Source: Sphingomonas sp. KRR8
GTDB taxonomy: Bacteria; Pseudomonadota; Alphaproteobacteria; Sphingomonadales; Sphingomonadaceae
Direction: 5' to 3'
Assembly: GCF_023559245.1 (NCBI RefSeq)
Contig: NZ_CP097462.1
Span: 372,001-436,000 of the forward strand
DNA length: 64,000 nucleotides
Made by a program: the position numbers and the translations under genes. The notes below the pieces were generated by a model. That model saw only the letters and a list, made by a program, of their open reading frames with translations, made no database searches and was not told where the DNA came from. Below, one piece after another: positions 59,113 to 63,792 of the stretch (its first letter is position 1; every line of letters starts with the position of its first letter).

Positions 59113-59189
59113 GGCGGAGTAGCTCAGCTGGTTAGAGCAGCGGAATCATAATCCGCGTGTCGGGGGTTCAAGTCCCTCCTCCGCTACCA
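59113..59189 (+). tRNA. tRNA-Met (anticodon CAT, elongator)
   Basis: Acceptor GGCGGAG/CTCCGCT (with a G-T pair at 1-72), D-arm, anticodon loop ATCATAA (CAT), T-loop TTCAAGT and an encoded CCA are present. The anticodon-stem GCGGA/TCCGC fits elongator Met rather than initiator Met, which lacks this and has an unpaired 1-72. Lysidine-type Ile-CAT is a lesser alternative. Confidence 0.93.
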
Positions 59190-59262: not shown

Positions 59263-59565
59263 GAACGAGCACAGCGCCTAATCCGCCGAACCGTTCGCAA
59301 CGGCGACTCCTTCGTGATCGGAAGACTGACGCAGGATGAGAACATCTCGAACAGGCGCAAGATTCCGCTGCTCGGCGACATCCCGCTGCTCGGCCATGCG
59401 TTCCGCACCGATCGCACGAGCAGCACCAAGACGGAGCTGTATCTCCTCGTGACCCCGCACGTCGTGCACCATGTCGGTGCGCCCACGACGCCTTCCGGGA
59501 ACGCGCCCGTCTACGCTCCGACGACCACGACCAGCGTTCCGGCGGGATCTCCGAGCGAGCGTTAG
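59263..59565 (+). pseudogene. Secretin (GspD/type II-III secretion) C-terminal remnant
   Basis: The frame open from 59263 reads IRRTVRNGDSFVIGRLTQ, then NRRKIPLLGDIPLLGHAFRT, then STKTELYLLVTPHVV. This is the last beta-strand set of the secretin pore domain with its characteristic GDIP-LG and TELYLLVTP motifs. Everything upstream (N0-N3 domains and most of the pore) is absent; a TAA at 59260 precedes it. A Thr/Pro-rich tail follows. The only in-frame start is a GTG at 59314, which would cut the domain. It is best read as a decayed fragment next to a tRNA gene. Confidence 0.75.
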
Positions 59566-59644: not shown

Positions 59645-59962
59645 TCAAGGCCGCTCGCGAAGGCGCTCGAATTCGCGGGCGAGGGTGCCTTCCTTCTCGA
59701 CCGTGATCCGCTCCAGCACCTTGATCCTCTCCTTGAGGTCGGCGATCTGCGGATCGGGCTGCGGCTGCAGCGCAGAGACCGGGGACGCAAGCGGCGGCAG
59801 CGGTGGGGCAGGCGCGTGATTCGGTTGTTGGAGCTGTACCCGCTGCAACTTTCTGATCTTCCGCTTCAGCAGCCAGGTACGAATAACCAGCAGGAAGGTG
59901 CAGGCGCCGAAGAACATGGCGCAGATCATCGCGGCGATGAATTCTTCTTGCGGAACCATCAT
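59645..59962 (-). CDS. Psp-locus small membrane protein 5 (PspB/C-like tail module)
   Basis: The 105-residue protein has one N-terminal helix (about residues 9-31), a basic stretch KRKIRKLQR, a Pro-rich linker (about 48-70) and the shared C-terminal module DLKERIKVLERITVEKEGTL then AREFERLRERP. The module is nearly identical to that of the next upstream protein. It is the last gene of the pspA operon, 18 bases after its neighbour. Function unknown; membrane-stress link inferred from context. Confidence 0.82.
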   Translation of the reverse strand: MMVPQEEFIAAMICAMFFGACTFLLVIRTWLLKRKIRKLQRVQLQQPNHAPAPPLPPLASPVSALQPQPDPQIADLKERIKVLERITVEKEGTLAREFERLRERP

Positions 59963-59980
59963 TGGTATTTCCCCTGTTGA

Positions 59981-60253
59981 TTAGCGGTCGCGCAGTTCGT
60001 CGATCTGGCGAGCCAGGCTGTTTTCCTTGTCGACCGTAATCCGCTCGAGCACCTGGATGCGCTCCTTCAGCTGACGGACTTCTTCAGTCAGGCGGGCGGC
60101 CTCCGCATTGGGCCGCTCCGACTGATCATCGACGAAGCCGTTACGCCGATCGCGCCAGCGAGAGTGCATCGTCTGCAAGCCCATTCGAGCGCGGATGATG
60201 CTGAAGATGCCGGTGATGACGATGATGGCGAGTATGAATTCGGGAGCGTTCAT
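59981..60253 (-). CDS. Psp-locus small membrane protein 4 (PspB/C-like tail module)
   Basis: The 90-residue protein has one N-terminal helix (about 5-21), a basic segment (RARMGLQTMHSRWRDRRN) and the coiled-coil module QLKERIQVLERITVDKENSL then ARQIDELRDR. Its start overlaps the stop of the preceding gene by four bases (ATGA). It and protein 5 share ERIxVLERITVxKE, suggesting a recent duplication of the module. Confidence 0.83.
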   Translation of the reverse strand: MNAPEFILAIIVITGIFSIIRARMGLQTMHSRWRDRRNGFVDDQSERPNAEAARLTEEVRQLKERIQVLERITVDKENSLARQIDELRDR

Positions 60254-60534
60254 CGGACTCTTTCGGTGAGGGGACTGGAGGCGGGCACGTCACGCAGCGC
60301 CTCGATCTGCGCGGCGGTCTGGACCCCGCCGTCGGTCATGATCCGCTCGAGCACGCGTACGCGCTGCTCCAGCTCGTTCACCCGGCTCGCATATTGCGCC
60401 GCTTTCTCGGCTGCGAGGCTCGACTGACCATCAAGCTGCCGCTCCTTGACCCGCAGCCACATCTTGAACGGCGCGATGCCGATGGCGGCGAGAGGGATCA
60501 GCACCCAGATCCAGCTGGCAATATGATCATGCAT
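60250..60534 (-). CDS. Psp-locus small membrane protein 3 (PspB/C-like tail module)
   Basis: The 94-residue protein has one helix (about 7-25: WIWVLIPLAAIGIAPFKMW), a charged KERQ segment, an Ala-rich helix AAEKAAQYASRVNEL and the module LEQRVRVLERIMTDGGVQTA then AQIEALR. It aligns along its length with protein 2, the two being tandem duplicates. It overlaps protein 2 by eight bases and protein 4 by four. Confidence 0.83.
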   Translation of the reverse strand: MHDHIASWIWVLIPLAAIGIAPFKMWLRVKERQLDGQSSLAAEKAAQYASRVNELEQRVRVLERIMTDGGVQTAAQIEALRDVPASSPLTERVR

Positions 60535-60793
60535 TGAGCTTGCTTCCTTGTGTCAGGCTCGGCTTGCGCAGCGCTTCGATCTGCGCGGCAGTCTCGTAGC
60601 CGCCATCGGTGACAATCTGCTCGACGACCTTCAATCGCTCCTCAAGCGCAGTCATTCGGGCGGCATCCTGAGCTGCCTTTTGCGCGGCCAAGTCGCTGGT
60701 AATGCTGATCTTTTTTTCCTTGATGTGCATCCAGTACATGAGCGGCCCGAGCAGGATCGCCAGAATGGGCACTAACAGGCCGAGGTTCTGCAT
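60527..60793 (-). CDS. Psp-locus small membrane protein 2 (PspB/C-like tail module)
   Basis: The 88-residue protein has one helix (about 4-22: LGLLVPILAILLGPLMYW), HIKEKK, an Ala-rich helix AAQKAAQDAARMTAL and the module LEERLKVVEQIVTDGGYETA then AQIEALR. Shared TDGG and TAAQIEALR with protein 3 mark a tandem duplication. It lies five bases after protein 1. Confidence 0.83.
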   Translation of the reverse strand: MQNLGLLVPILAILLGPLMYWMHIKEKKISITSDLAAQKAAQDAARMTALEERLKVVEQIVTDGGYETAAQIEALRKPSLTQGSKLNA

Positions 60794-60798
60794 GGCGC

Positions 60799-61134
60799 TC
60801 AGTTCCGCGTGAGGTGAAGGCTGTCGATTTCCTTGGCGAGACGGCTGCTGTCGTCTGTGACGATCCGCTCCACCGTCACCAGCCGATCCTTGATCGCCCC
60901 GACTTCAGCGCGCAGCTGTGCGTTTTCCGAGGTCAGCAGGCGAATACGCTCGGCCGACTCCTCATCCTTCTTCGGATGCAGCGGAAGGCCCCAACTGCTG
61001 GTTAGCGGATAGCCGTTCTTCACCTTCAGCCAGGTGTGAAGAAGCGATCCCCCGACGCTGACCGCGACGATGACAACGACCATCGGCAGGACCTTCGTAA
61101 GAAAGCCGAACACCGCGATGACTTCCGGATCCAT
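60799..61134 (-). CDS. Psp-locus small membrane protein 1 (PspB/C-like tail module)
   Basis: The 111-residue protein has one helix (about 12-34), HTWLKVKNGYP resembling the PspB post-helix region, a Glu-rich coiled coil (ESAERIRLLTSENAQLRAEV) and the module IKDRLVTVERIVTDDSSRLA then KEIDSLH. It follows pspC by 27 bases and bridges the canonical PspB form and the shorter paralogues downstream. Confidence 0.83.
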   Translation of the reverse strand: MDPEVIAVFGFLTKVLPMVVVIVAVSVGGSLLHTWLKVKNGYPLTSSWGLPLHPKKDEESAERIRLLTSENAQLRAEVGAIKDRLVTVERIVTDDSSRLAKEIDSLHLTRN

Positions 61135-61161
61135 TGGACGAACTCCCCTGTTTGTCCGTGG

Positions 61162-61554
61162 TTAGCGCAGCTGCTCAATCTCGTTGGCCAGGCTGCGATT
61201 GTTGCTGAGCACGTAGCTCTCCACGTCCGCCAGGCGCCGGTCGATGGCGCGGAAGCTTGCGTGAATGTCGCGCGTCGTGCGGGCCGGCGACTGACGGACG
61301 CCCTGCCAGAAACGGCGTTCATCGGCGCTGTCGTAAGCCAGCTCCCGCGGCTTGTCGGACGCCAGCCAGCCGACGATGAAGTAGACCGGCAGCAGCCCGG
61401 CGCCCGGCCCCATGAAGATGGCCAGCACCAGCATGATGCGGATCAGCGTGACGTCGAACCCCGTATAGTCCGCAATCCCCGCGCAGACGCCAAGAACCTT
61501 GCCGTTGCGTTTGTCGCGGTAGAACTTCGTGCGGCTTGGTGGCTGCGTGGCCAT
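61162..61554 (-). CDS. pspC: Phage shock protein C
   Basis: The 130-residue protein has the PspC domain in residues 8-70 (KFYRDKRNGKVLGVCAGIAD, then a helix IRIMLVLAIFMGPGAGLLPV and YFIVGWLAS). Its C-terminal tail IDRRLADVESYVLSNNRSLA then NEIEQLR carries the same module as the downstream small proteins. PspC senses membrane stress with PspB and releases PspA from PspF. Its ATG overlaps the pspB stop by one base. Confidence 0.93.
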   Translation of the reverse strand: MATQPPSRTKFYRDKRNGKVLGVCAGIADYTGFDVTLIRIMLVLAIFMGPGAGLLPVYFIVGWLASDKPRELAYDSADERRFWQGVRQSPARTTRDIHASFRAIDRRLADVESYVLSNNRSLANEIEQLR

Positions 61555-61883
61555 CAGCGTACCTCCTTGGCGCGGCTGCGAGCCGAGAGGCGCGCGAGCT
61601 CCGCGTCGAGATCAAGCTCATCCGAGGTCGAGGTCAGGCGCGGCGCATCGGGCGCGCACTGCTGCTTCCAATCGGGATTGTCGGCGGCCATGATCCGCTC
61701 GATCGAGCACAGCCGATCATCCAGTCGACGCGCCGTTTCGTGGAGCTGGTCGAGCAACTGCTCGTCCGAGCCTGTCAGCGTTGCGGCGGTCTTCCACCTG
61801 GTGACATAGTGAAAGATGAGCCACGGCAGGCCCAGGAACAGGATCGCCACCACGATTGGTGCGATGATGATGCTTTCGTCCAC
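61554..61883 (-). CDS. pspB: Phage shock protein B
   Basis: The 109-residue protein has one helix (about 6-27: APIVVAILFLGLPWLIFHYV), TRWK and the PspB coiled coil LLDQLHETARRLDDRLCSIE with RIMAADNPDWK. The C-terminal extension after about residue 82 is longer than in enterobacterial PspB (about 74 residues). It lies three bases after pspA. Confidence 0.9.
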   Translation of the reverse strand: MDESIIIAPIVVAILFLGLPWLIFHYVTRWKTAATLTGSDEQLLDQLHETARRLDDRLCSIERIMAADNPDWKQQCAPDAPRLTSTSDELDLDAELARLSARSRAKEVR

Positions 61884-61886
61884 GGC

Positions 61887-62555
61887 TTAATTCCCCTTAC
61901 CCGCAAGCCGCGCCTTCAGTGCCTCGAGTTCCGCGTCGACCGCGTCCTCGGCCTTGAGGTCGGCAATTTCCTCTTCCAGGCTCTTCGGCCCGGTCATCCC
62001 CAGCGCCTCCGCGCGCCCCTCGGCGAAGTCGGCGCGGCGCTCGAGCAACTCGAAACGGCTGAACGCGTCCTCGGTCCGGCTGCCGTTCAGCAGCTCGCGC
62101 GCACGGGCGCGAGTGACCGCGCTCTCGATCCGGGTGGAGATGCTGTTCTGCCGGGCGCGCGCCTCGCGCAGCTTGCCCTGGAGCTTGGCGATGTCCGCCT
62201 CATAGCCCTTGAGCGTGTCTTCCACGACCGTGATCTCTTCCTCGAGGCCCTTGGACATGTCGGCGGCCTTCTGGCGCTCGACCAGGGCGGCCTTGGCCAG
62301 GTCCTCGCGGCCCTTGCTCAGCGCCAGTTCGGCCTTCTCCGTCCAGCCGTCGCGAAGCCCGTCCAGCCGAACCATCGCGCGGCGCATTTCCTTGGCGTCC
62401 GCGATACAACGAGCGGCCGTGGCGCGAACCTCGACCAGCGTTTCTTCCATTTCGAGAATGATCATGCGGATCATCCGCCCGGGGTCTTCAGCCCGGTCGA
62501 GCAGCTCGGCGAAATTGGCTGCCATGATGTCCCTGGTGCGGGAAAAGATGCTCAT
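61887..62555 (-). CDS. pspA: Phage shock protein A
   Basis: The 222-residue ESCRT-III-like protein binds stressed inner membrane and inhibits PspF. It starts MSIFSRTRDIMAANFAELLD with the amphipathic helix, then VEDPGRMIRMIILEMEE-type sequence (here AEDPGRMIRMIILEMEETLV), and is predicted almost entirely coiled coil. It is first in the operon, behind a sigma-54 promoter and divergent from pspF. Confidence 0.96.
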   Translation of the reverse strand: MSIFSRTRDIMAANFAELLDRAEDPGRMIRMIILEMEETLVEVRATAARCIADAKEMRRAMVRLDGLRDGWTEKAELALSKGREDLAKAALVERQKAADMSKGLEEEITVVEDTLKGYEADIAKLQGKLREARARQNSISTRIESAVTRARARELLNGSRTEDAFSRFELLERRADFAEGRAEALGMTGPKSLEEEIADLKAEDAVDAELEALKARLAGKGN

Positions 62556-62600: not shown

Positions 62601-62618
62601 ATGCAGAGTCCGTGCCAA
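62601..62618 (-). promoter_or_regulatory. Sigma-54 promoter of the psp operon
   Basis: On the minus strand TTGGCACGGACTCTGCAT has the -24 GG and -12 GC exactly 10 bases apart (TGGCACG-N4-cTGCa). It lies about 45 bases upstream of pspA. A GCTTGCCAAGC near-palindrome at 62682-62692 is a candidate PspF upstream activating site. Confidence 0.85.
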
Positions 62619-62718: not shown

Positions 62719-63792
62719 GTGCAGCGGACGCAAAATTTCATAGGCTCCAGCCTCGCCTTCCTCGACGCGGTCGAGCGGGCCAGCCGTGCCGCGCCGCTCA
62801 ACCGTCCCGTCCTTGTGATAGGCGAACGCGGCACGGGCAAGGAGTTGATTGCCGAGCGTCTTCATCACCTGTCGTCGCGCTGGGCGGGGCCGCTGGTCAC
62901 CATGAACTGCGCCGCGCTTCCAGAAAACCTCATCGAGGCCGAGCTGTTCGGCCACGAGGCGGGCAGCTTCACCGGGGCTGCAAAGACCCGCCACGGCCGC
63001 TTCGAGGAGGCTGACGGCGGAACCCTGTTCCTTGACGAACTCGCGACCCTGAGCTCGCCAGCGCAAGACCGGCTCCTTCGCGCCGTCGAATATGGCGAAA
63101 TCACGCGCATCGGTGCGTCCAAGCCGGTCAAGGTCGATGTTCGCATCGTCGCCGCCACCAACGAGCACCTGCCGCGCCTGGTGGACGAAGGGCGCTTCCG
63201 TGCCGACCTGCTCGACCGCTTGAGTTTCGAGGTCATCACCCTGCCGCCGCTACGGCTGCGGCAAGGCGACGTGCCGCTGCTCGCCGAGCATTTCGGCCGG
63301 CGCATGGCGGTGGAACTCGACTGGCCGGGCTGGCCGGGCTTCGCGCCGGGCGCCCAGGCGGAACTCGAGCGTTATCCCTGGCCGGGTAACGTCCGCGAAC
63401 TGCGCAACGTGGTGGAGCGTGCCGTCTACCGCTGGGAGGACCCCGAACGGCCGATCGCATCGGTTCAATTCGATCCCTTTGCCTCACCCTGGGCGCCAGG
63501 ACAGGGGCCAATGGCACCGGTTGCGGCGGCGGCACCCGTCGCAGCGGCGCCGGCCAGCGCTGCGCCATCCTCGGACGCCCCACCCGAAGCACCGGTCGCG
63601 GCGGCCGCACCCTCCGCGGTCACCAACGATTTCCGCGGCGCGGTCATGAGCTATGAACGCGCTCTCCTCGAGGAAGCTCTTCGCACCAACCGCTACAACC
63701 AGCGCGCCACCGCCGCTGCCTTGTCGCTGAGCTATGACCAGCTTCGCCATGCGCTGAAGCGTCACAAGCTGCTGGAAGGCGAGGCGGCCTGA
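62719..63792 (+). CDS. pspF: Psp operon sigma-54 activator PspF
   Basis: The 357-residue AAA+ activator lacks a receiver domain, as PspF does. It shows Walker A GERGTGKE (35-42), the sigma-54-contacting loop as GSFTGA (82-87) instead of GAFTGA, Walker B GGTLFLDEL, the NVRELRNVVERAVYRW segment, then an unusual Ala/Pro-rich linker of about 50 residues (from about 255) and a Fis-type HTH (NQRATAAALSLSYDQLRHAL). The GTG at 62719 is the start; the nearby ATG at 62714 is out of frame. It diverges from pspA, and PspA normally inhibits it. Confidence 0.93.
   Translation: MQRTQNFIGSSLAFLDAVERASRAAPLNRPVLVIGERGTGKELIAERLHHLSSRWAGPLVTMNCAALPENLIEAELFGHEAGSFTGAAKTRHGRFEEADGGTLFLDELATLSSPAQDRLLRAVEYGEITRIGASKPVKVDVRIVAATNEHLPRLVDEGRFRADLLDRLSFEVITLPPLRLRQGDVPLLAEHFGRRMAVELDWPGWPGFAPGAQAELERYPWPGNVRELRNVVERAVYRWEDPERPIASVQFDPFASPWAPGQGPMAPVAAAAPVAAAPASAAPSSDAPPEAPVAAAAPSAVTNDFRGAVMSYERALLEEALRTNRYNQRATAAALSLSYDQLRHALKRHKLLEGEAA

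Follow-up and report, generated by a model that had tools for sequence, protein, structure and literature searches.

Signal transfer from PspB and PspC to PspA, and the membrane anchoring of PspA, are partly understood aspects of the phage-shock (Psp) system, known largely from enterobacteria, in which PspD and PspG also occur as small extra Psp membrane proteins. We analysed the psp locus of Sphingomonas sp. KRR8 in a 64,000-nucleotide stretch of its genome (NZ_CP097462.1, positions 372,001 to 436,000; hereafter the window), where pspA, pspB and pspC are followed by five further small genes, designated E1 to E5. In Escherichia coli, PspC40-119, consisting of the transmembrane (TM) segment and the tail, induced psp without PspB when strongly expressed, and it interacted with PspA, the leucine zipper of the tail being required (PMC3068692). 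In Yersinia, PspA was bound by the C-terminal cytoplasmic domain of PspC in the on state (PMC5596341). PspB duplicates within a pspFABC operon (e.g., AOL22920.1) and a divergent PspB fused to the C-terminus of PspC have also been reported (Ravi 2024; PMC11237479).

Sequence comparisons supported homology among E1-E5, and homology of their C-terminal helix to the tail of PspC and, over its first half, to PspB. PspB (PF06667/TIGR02976) shares with E1-E5 an R..LE core, the location in the psp operon and, as predicted for E1-E5, a single N-terminal TM segment with a cytoplasmic helix, but it has an NPDW-type end where E1-E5 have a PspC-type second half, and E1-E5 fell below both PspB cut-offs (at best 23.5 of 25.6 bits for E4 with the Pfam profile and 21.6 of 51.7 bits for E2 with the NCBIfam profile). 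The PspC tail (C-terminus of TIGR02978) contains the whole module, both halves, in the same C-terminal position as in E1-E5, which are without the PspC domain (no match to PF04024). Their layout is that of E. coli PspC40-119, E1-E5 being naturally composed of a TM segment and a tail. No E protein matched the PspD or PspG families in the Pfam and NCBIfam profiles, and no solved structural relative was found by sequence at E<0.01. The operon of Ravi 2024 has extra PspB-like genes as here, but the counts, groups, order, range and PspC-like tail are not described in the accessible text; for Zymomonas mobilis, whose ZMO1061-ZMO1065 are sphingomonad psp genes, the accessible text mentions no extra genes beyond pspC. 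Duplicates of PspB in the operon, and a PspC whose end is PspB-like, are already in print. The sphingomonad array itself is apparently undescribed: no description was found in the accessible parts of PMC11237479, PMC9239133 or the sphingomonad literature, in a search that left most subscription journals outside.

The genome carrying the window is a single contig of 2.87 Mb. PspF, PspA, PspB and PspC all scored above curated NCBIfam cut-offs and pspF was divergent, which identifies the locus as a Psp operon. The positions originally predicted for pspB, pspC and the five further genes on the minus strand were all confirmed. Downstream of pspA, the genes follow in the order pspB, pspC, E1-E5 on a common strand, with gaps from pspA to E5 of 3, -1, 27, 5, -8, -4 and 18 nucleotides (nt). 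The features are as follows (lengths in amino acids, aa):

62719..63792, plus strand: pspF, sigma54 activator, divergent from pspA (TIGR02974, 8.8e-144, above cut-off)
62602..62617, minus strand: sigma54 -24/-12-like site TGGCACGGACTCTGCA, matching the consensus at 10 of 11 positions and preceding pspA by 62 nt
61887..62555, minus strand: pspA (TIGR02977, 9.6e-77, above cut-off)
61554..61883, minus strand: pspB, GTG start, with the first half of the module (PF06667, 7e-25; TIGR02976, 1.9e-25)
61162..61554, minus strand: pspC, with PspC domain, TM segment and full tail module (TIGR02978, 9.8e-37 over 9-129, above cut-off)
60799..61134, minus strand: E1, 111 aa, group E1, with GYPLE...WG hairpin (E1 profile, 127 bits; PspC-tail profile, 24.4 bits, 1e-8)
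60527..60793, minus strand: E2, 88 aa, group E3 (E3 profile, 95 bits; PspC-tail profile, 13.7 bits, 2.2e-5)
60250..60534, minus strand: E3, 94 aa, group E3 (E3 profile, 113 bits; PspC-tail profile, 10.3 bits, 2.6e-4)
59981..60253, minus strand: E4, 90 aa, group E4 (E4 profile, 81 bits; PspC-tail profile, 12.7 bits, 4.7e-5; PF06667, 5.8e-5, below cut-off)
59645..59962, minus strand: E5, 105 aa, second E4-group gene, at the site where most family loci have TL (E4 profile, 50 bits; TL profile, 20 bits)

For comparison, a PspB match was present in 136 family genomes besides that of the window, and psp loci were taken from 80 of these and added to the window; gene chains were counted over 79 loci, L072 and L086 being left out for want of a called pspC. 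The runs after pspC in the family loci, including that of the window, yielded 298 small TM proteins. All-against-all phmmer of these proteins gave 50,227 query-target matches at E<1e-3, versus 9 to reversed decoys, which is more than chance; a generic coiled coil as the sole likeness was rejected on the basis of these decoys and of PspA, which served as the coiled-coil control. The claim that five extra genes of 88-111 aa share a C-terminal module with PspC thus held up under profiles and both kinds of control. Four profile groups were distinguished, namely E1 (88 proteins), E3 (70), E4 (74) and TL (62), with four proteins outside all of them. Within the window, BLASTP linked E1 with E4 (9e-8), E2 with E3 (2e-25), E3 with E4 (2e-8) and E4 with E5 (1e-10). 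Single-sequence matches to PspB or PspC were weak (PspB-E1, 0.015; PspC-E4, 0.046; PspC-E2, 0.052), and the kinship of E1-E5 to these two proteins is therefore based on profiles.

The profile-profile comparison proposed with the original prediction was performed with hhalign. Probabilities among the E groups were 99.2 (E1-E3), 99.4 (E1-E4) and 98.7 (E3-E4), and those to PspC or its tail ranged from 89 to 96 (tail alone: E1, 96.0; E3, 89.2; E4, 91.7). PspB reached 89.7 with E1, 89.5 with E3 and 55.1 with E4; TL reached 94.1 with E4, 92.1 with E3 and 50.1 with E1, and less than 1 with PspB and with PspC. PspB scored 24 against PspC and 2.6 against the PspC tail alone. Controls with PspA gave at most 5.1 and reversed controls at most 26.3, except for PspC against its own reversed tail (85), because of which values in the 80s are insufficient by themselves. 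The PspC-tail profile matched all of E1-E5 (E<=4.5e-4, 9.5-24.4 bits, eight window proteins searched), and the E profiles had six matches in the genome, all at the psp locus, namely E1-E5 and the PspC tail. Conservation of the module was 0.66, 0.76 and 0.63, compared with 0.52, 0.46 and 0.46 for the preceding part. Fusion-like proteins among P0001-P0005 were single members and were not used.

The C-terminus of E. coli PspC is RLREMERYVTSDTFTLRSRFRQL and the end of E. coli PspB is RMRERIQALESILDAEHPNWRDR; the module accordingly resembles the canonical PspC tail, and its first half resembles the PspB helix. The module is thus already part of the canonical system. Direct searches with profiles gave a cleaner result than the hhalign values: the PspC-tail profile matched 109 of the 232 E1-, E3- and E4-group proteins at E<1e-3 and the PspB profile 20 of the same 232, with 0 of 298 reversed decoys in either case. 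A pattern for the second half (LxxEIxxL type) fitted 78/78 PspC, 66/88 E1, 45/70 E3 and 71/74 E4 proteins, and none of the 62 TL proteins or 81 PspB tails. PspB had been said to carry the module in degenerate form; its first half is present and its second half is missing. These figures bear on the idea, conceivable though on the unlikely side, that E1-E5 are extra PspB-like silencers, whose tails would associate with that of PspC in the absence of stress, set the threshold, and each be freed by a different stress, a proposal close to the interchangeable sensors first envisaged. The PspB-like first half, with hhalign values near 90 for E1 and E3, and the predicted layout of one N-terminal TM segment and a cytoplasmic helix are what such silencers would have, and cytoplasmic contacts between PspB and PspC silence Psp, according to the title of a work cited in PMC5596341. 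The tails are nearer, however, to the PspC tail than to PspB, and most of them have the second half that PspB lacks.

The AlphaFold2 model of E1 consisted of helices 3-40 (TM) and 58-110 with a short turn between them (mean predicted local distance difference test score, pLDDT, 87; predicted template modelling score 0.41). The AlphaFold model of PspC (tail helices 90-118 and 120-129) had a mean pLDDT of 67 and was left unused. Flanking charges agreed with an N-out/C-in orientation in 99-100% of every group, suggesting that E1-E5 are single-TM proteins with C-in topology.

We propose, with a probability of about one half, that E1-E5, produced on induction of Psp, are single-TM anchors bearing PspC-type tails to which PspA docks, and that they keep PspA membrane-bound and off PspF. 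E1-E5 would display the helical tail in the cytoplasm and would be expressed with pspABC from the PspF/sigma54 promoter, so that they would appear mainly once Psp had been induced. Each tail would dock PspA, directly or via mixed coiled coils with PspC and PspB, as inferred from the E. coli work, and the extra genes probably multiply the docking sites for PspA. PspA docked in this manner would be kept at the membrane, away from PspF, resulting in positive feedback and in more anchoring sites for PspA assemblies. Differing anchors and linkers would let the groups serve different membrane places or states. In favour of this proposal are the tail homology and the E. coli PspB and PspC sequences, the flanking charges, the promoter-like site and tight spacing, the purifying selection, the presence of PspC in genomes with strong matches outside the family, the second pspC-TL loci, and the published work on PspC40-119 and on Yersinia PspC.

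Regulation was examined across the family loci. The pspF gene was present in 77 of the 79 loci and divergent in all 77, and a sigma54-type site (10 or 11 of 11 positions) was found in 72 of the 77 pspF-pspA gaps, versus 0.6% of shuffles. The 453 segments of 250 nt that precede pspB, pspC, E and TL genes, which were shorter than many of the pspF-pspA gaps, contained no sigma54-like site of that score. Gaps between E genes had a median of 17 nt (204/219 were <=50 nt, and 65 were overlaps). In the window, neither sigma54-like nor sigma70-like promoter sites were detected inside the operon, and terminator-like sites were absent from the operon strand, including behind E5; three lay on the other strand, versus 2.8 in shuffles. 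Spacing, overlaps and the promoter-like site indicate that pspABC and E1-E5 are probably on one transcript under PspF/sigma54, as the original prediction of a single co-regulated transcript had it. No data on expression of E genes were found in the accessible sphingomonad literature, whose texts name pspABC, pspF, ZMO1062 or a PspC gene only. In Zymomonas, a sphingomonad, pspABC were higher under ethanol and ZMO1062-1065 were up in xylose (PMC3495753, PMC8645129), and ZMO1062-1063 of Zymomonas mobilis were among temperature-responsive genes (PMC3495753, PMC8645129, PMC8237431). In 48 of the 79 family loci, though not in the window, a hydrophobic protein of 50-70 aa is encoded by a gene just upstream of pspA, with a 4-nt overlap in 16 of them. 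By tag order, ZMO1062 ('pspD', up with pspA in xylose) may be the counterpart of this gene.

The copy-number survey suggested earlier for sphingomonads was carried out on the same loci. One to seven group-assigned extra genes were present in 75 of the 79 Sphingomonadaceae psp loci, mostly four (29 loci) or five (16), and the chains ended in TL in 62 and in E4-TL in 59. Among named GTDB records (the best 80 of at least 574 loci, partly from the same genomes as the family sample), all 72 of the 80 loci with enough flank had one to six extra genes. The genera concerned included Novosphingobium, Sphingopyxis, Sphingobium, Sphingomonas, Sphingomicrobium and others. The closest relatives of the window's PspC among these best 80 loci were from Sphingomonas sp. 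(75-76% identity). The array of the window is E1-E3-E3-E4-E4 without TL, and its near relatives L214 and L215 likewise end in a second E4-group gene; the best BLASTP matches of E5 were in L210, L214, L211 and L215 (50-64% identity, only 45-48 bits). E1-E5 are possible 'interchangeable sensors', as first suggested; anchors and linkers vary from group to group and the order of the groups is largely fixed, which speaks against free interchange.

The original prediction also derived the family from duplication, and this is partly supported by the pairs E2/E3 (51% identity over 73 aa) and E4/E5 (61% over 33 aa). In a tree of 45 columns, PspB (100/99) and PspC (98/80) stood apart from the E proteins and orphan relatives, with weak support for that split (70/71), and neither the E1 group nor the E4 group formed a single clade. 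This tree included only six PspC rows and no TL row and gave long-branch warnings, and an origin of the E genes derived from it was rejected. Median ratios of nonsynonymous to synonymous substitution rates (dN/dS) over 21 locus pairs, two of which (L223/L266 and L068/L265) are near-copies, were 0.11 for PspA, 0.17 for PspC, 0.20 for PspB, 0.22 for E1, 0.24 for TL, 0.26 for E3 and 0.30 for E4, with single values up to 0.66, and indicate that the E1, E3, E4 and TL genes are under purifying selection. It is very unlikely that the array reflects ordinary paralogue build-up, in which easily made copies diverge and subfunctionalise with little new biology: copy numbers from 0 to 7, the two pairs and dN/dS values above those of pspABC agree with such a history, but four groups in a largely fixed order across the family, together with purifying selection, do not.

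In wider samples, E profiles matched 83 of 99 genomes of the order and 14 of 190 of the class, just one of the latter strongly outside the family. Weak class matches (10 of the 14 genomes) were set aside; those in G242, G263 and G327 were plain PspB or PspC, in L296, L301 and L304. No extra gene was found in other Alphaproteobacteria, all nine loci examined being plain pspFABC (L296-L304, from 9 of 11 other-family genomes with PspC). Orphan relatives of 57-99 aa occurred outside the family, both within the order and in further classes of the phylum, presumably Gammaproteobacteria. Of 40 further loci, 30 were read, and no relevant gene was called in L170-L172, L174, L192, L197-L199, L202 and L206. 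In L184, L181 and L193, the orphan tail genes lay beside rpoD, beside a gene for a resistance-nodulation-division (RND) pump, or between oxidoreductase and M3 peptidase genes. All 31 tested orphan-bearing genomes (17 of the order, 2 of the class, 12 others) had PspA and PspC, and all 27 phylum genomes with a strong match (E<1e-10; 299 sampled) had a PspC domain. Outside the own family, PspC was present in 14/14 strong-match genomes versus 34/286 overall (hypergeometric 7e-15, phylogeny uncorrected). This association counts against the possibility, quite unlikely in our view, that E1-E5 are stress effectors forming a membrane-tethered coiled-coil scaffold of their own, with PspA or PspC needed only for expression. 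The long helix in the E1 model and the existence of orphans unlinked to psp would suit a scaffold; TL, however, accompanies a second pspC and often a second pspA.

Several points weigh against PspA docking by the E tails. In PMC3068692, the default location of the PspC tail is periplasmic and a topology switch is proposed, and PspC40-119 was inductive there only on strong overexpression, full-length PspC being needed at basal level. The tail could instead cap PspC, and the unlinked orphans need not obey PspF control. PspC-tail scores of E2-E5 were modest (9.5-13.7 bits); TL, without the second half, was tied to the E groups only, with 0 of 62 proteins matching the PspC-tail profile. Four of the 79 loci had no extra gene, and the association with PspC was only 30/34 at E<=1e-4 (phylogeny uncorrected). 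These genes, which vary in number and group and have been gained and lost naturally, in a common environmental family with natural tail-only PspC relatives in the psp operon, provide a ready series for testing docking between tail and PspA. They also give a lead on thousands of mostly unnamed genes, the profile having matched 7513 of the 8000 candidates that were scored.

Second loci were found in the genus of the window, where TL was present in 12 of 13 same-genus genomes and overlapped a second pspC in 12/12 TL loci (L307-L318), the overlap being 1 or 4 nt. A second pspA lay in the stretch in 9 of the 12 and a PspB match in none, so that PspA and PspC can have a tail protein with them even where the surroundings hold no PspB match. 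In the genome of the window, which has a single PspA, pspC2-TL is at L305:4290-4960 (G000:C1, about 2741789-2742459). PspA was N-terminally extended in 27 of 79 loci, and 20 of 79 (between L082 and L112), from one group of genera, had a motif like the second half (R[LIF]xxE[ILV]xRLR type), a pattern defined after inspection of the sequences that occurred once in 141,038 other residues. It is unlikely that the sphingomonad PspC tail is a modular docking code, in which up to seven tail-bearing membrane proteins, plus PspA itself in one genus group (N-terminal half-module R(L/I)DxE(I/V)xRLR), would form mixed helical assemblies, and these would tether the ESCRT-III-like lattice of PspA in differing states of the membrane. 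On this view, Psp would be a polymer system with many anchors and not a one-sensor switch.

Tandem PspC matches inside the psp operon were observed in L223, L254, L265, L266, L274 and L281, and in L068, L070 and L079 the first tandem PspC was a PspC domain of 62-64 aa. In the window, an open reading frame at 59314-59565 on the plus strand, near tRNA-Met (59113-59189), matched the secretin domain PF00263 over its final 50 positions only and appears to be a remnant left at a point of rearrangement; secretins are known inducers of Psp. A lone PspC domain of 60 aa is encoded elsewhere in the genome of the window (L306:3913-4095).

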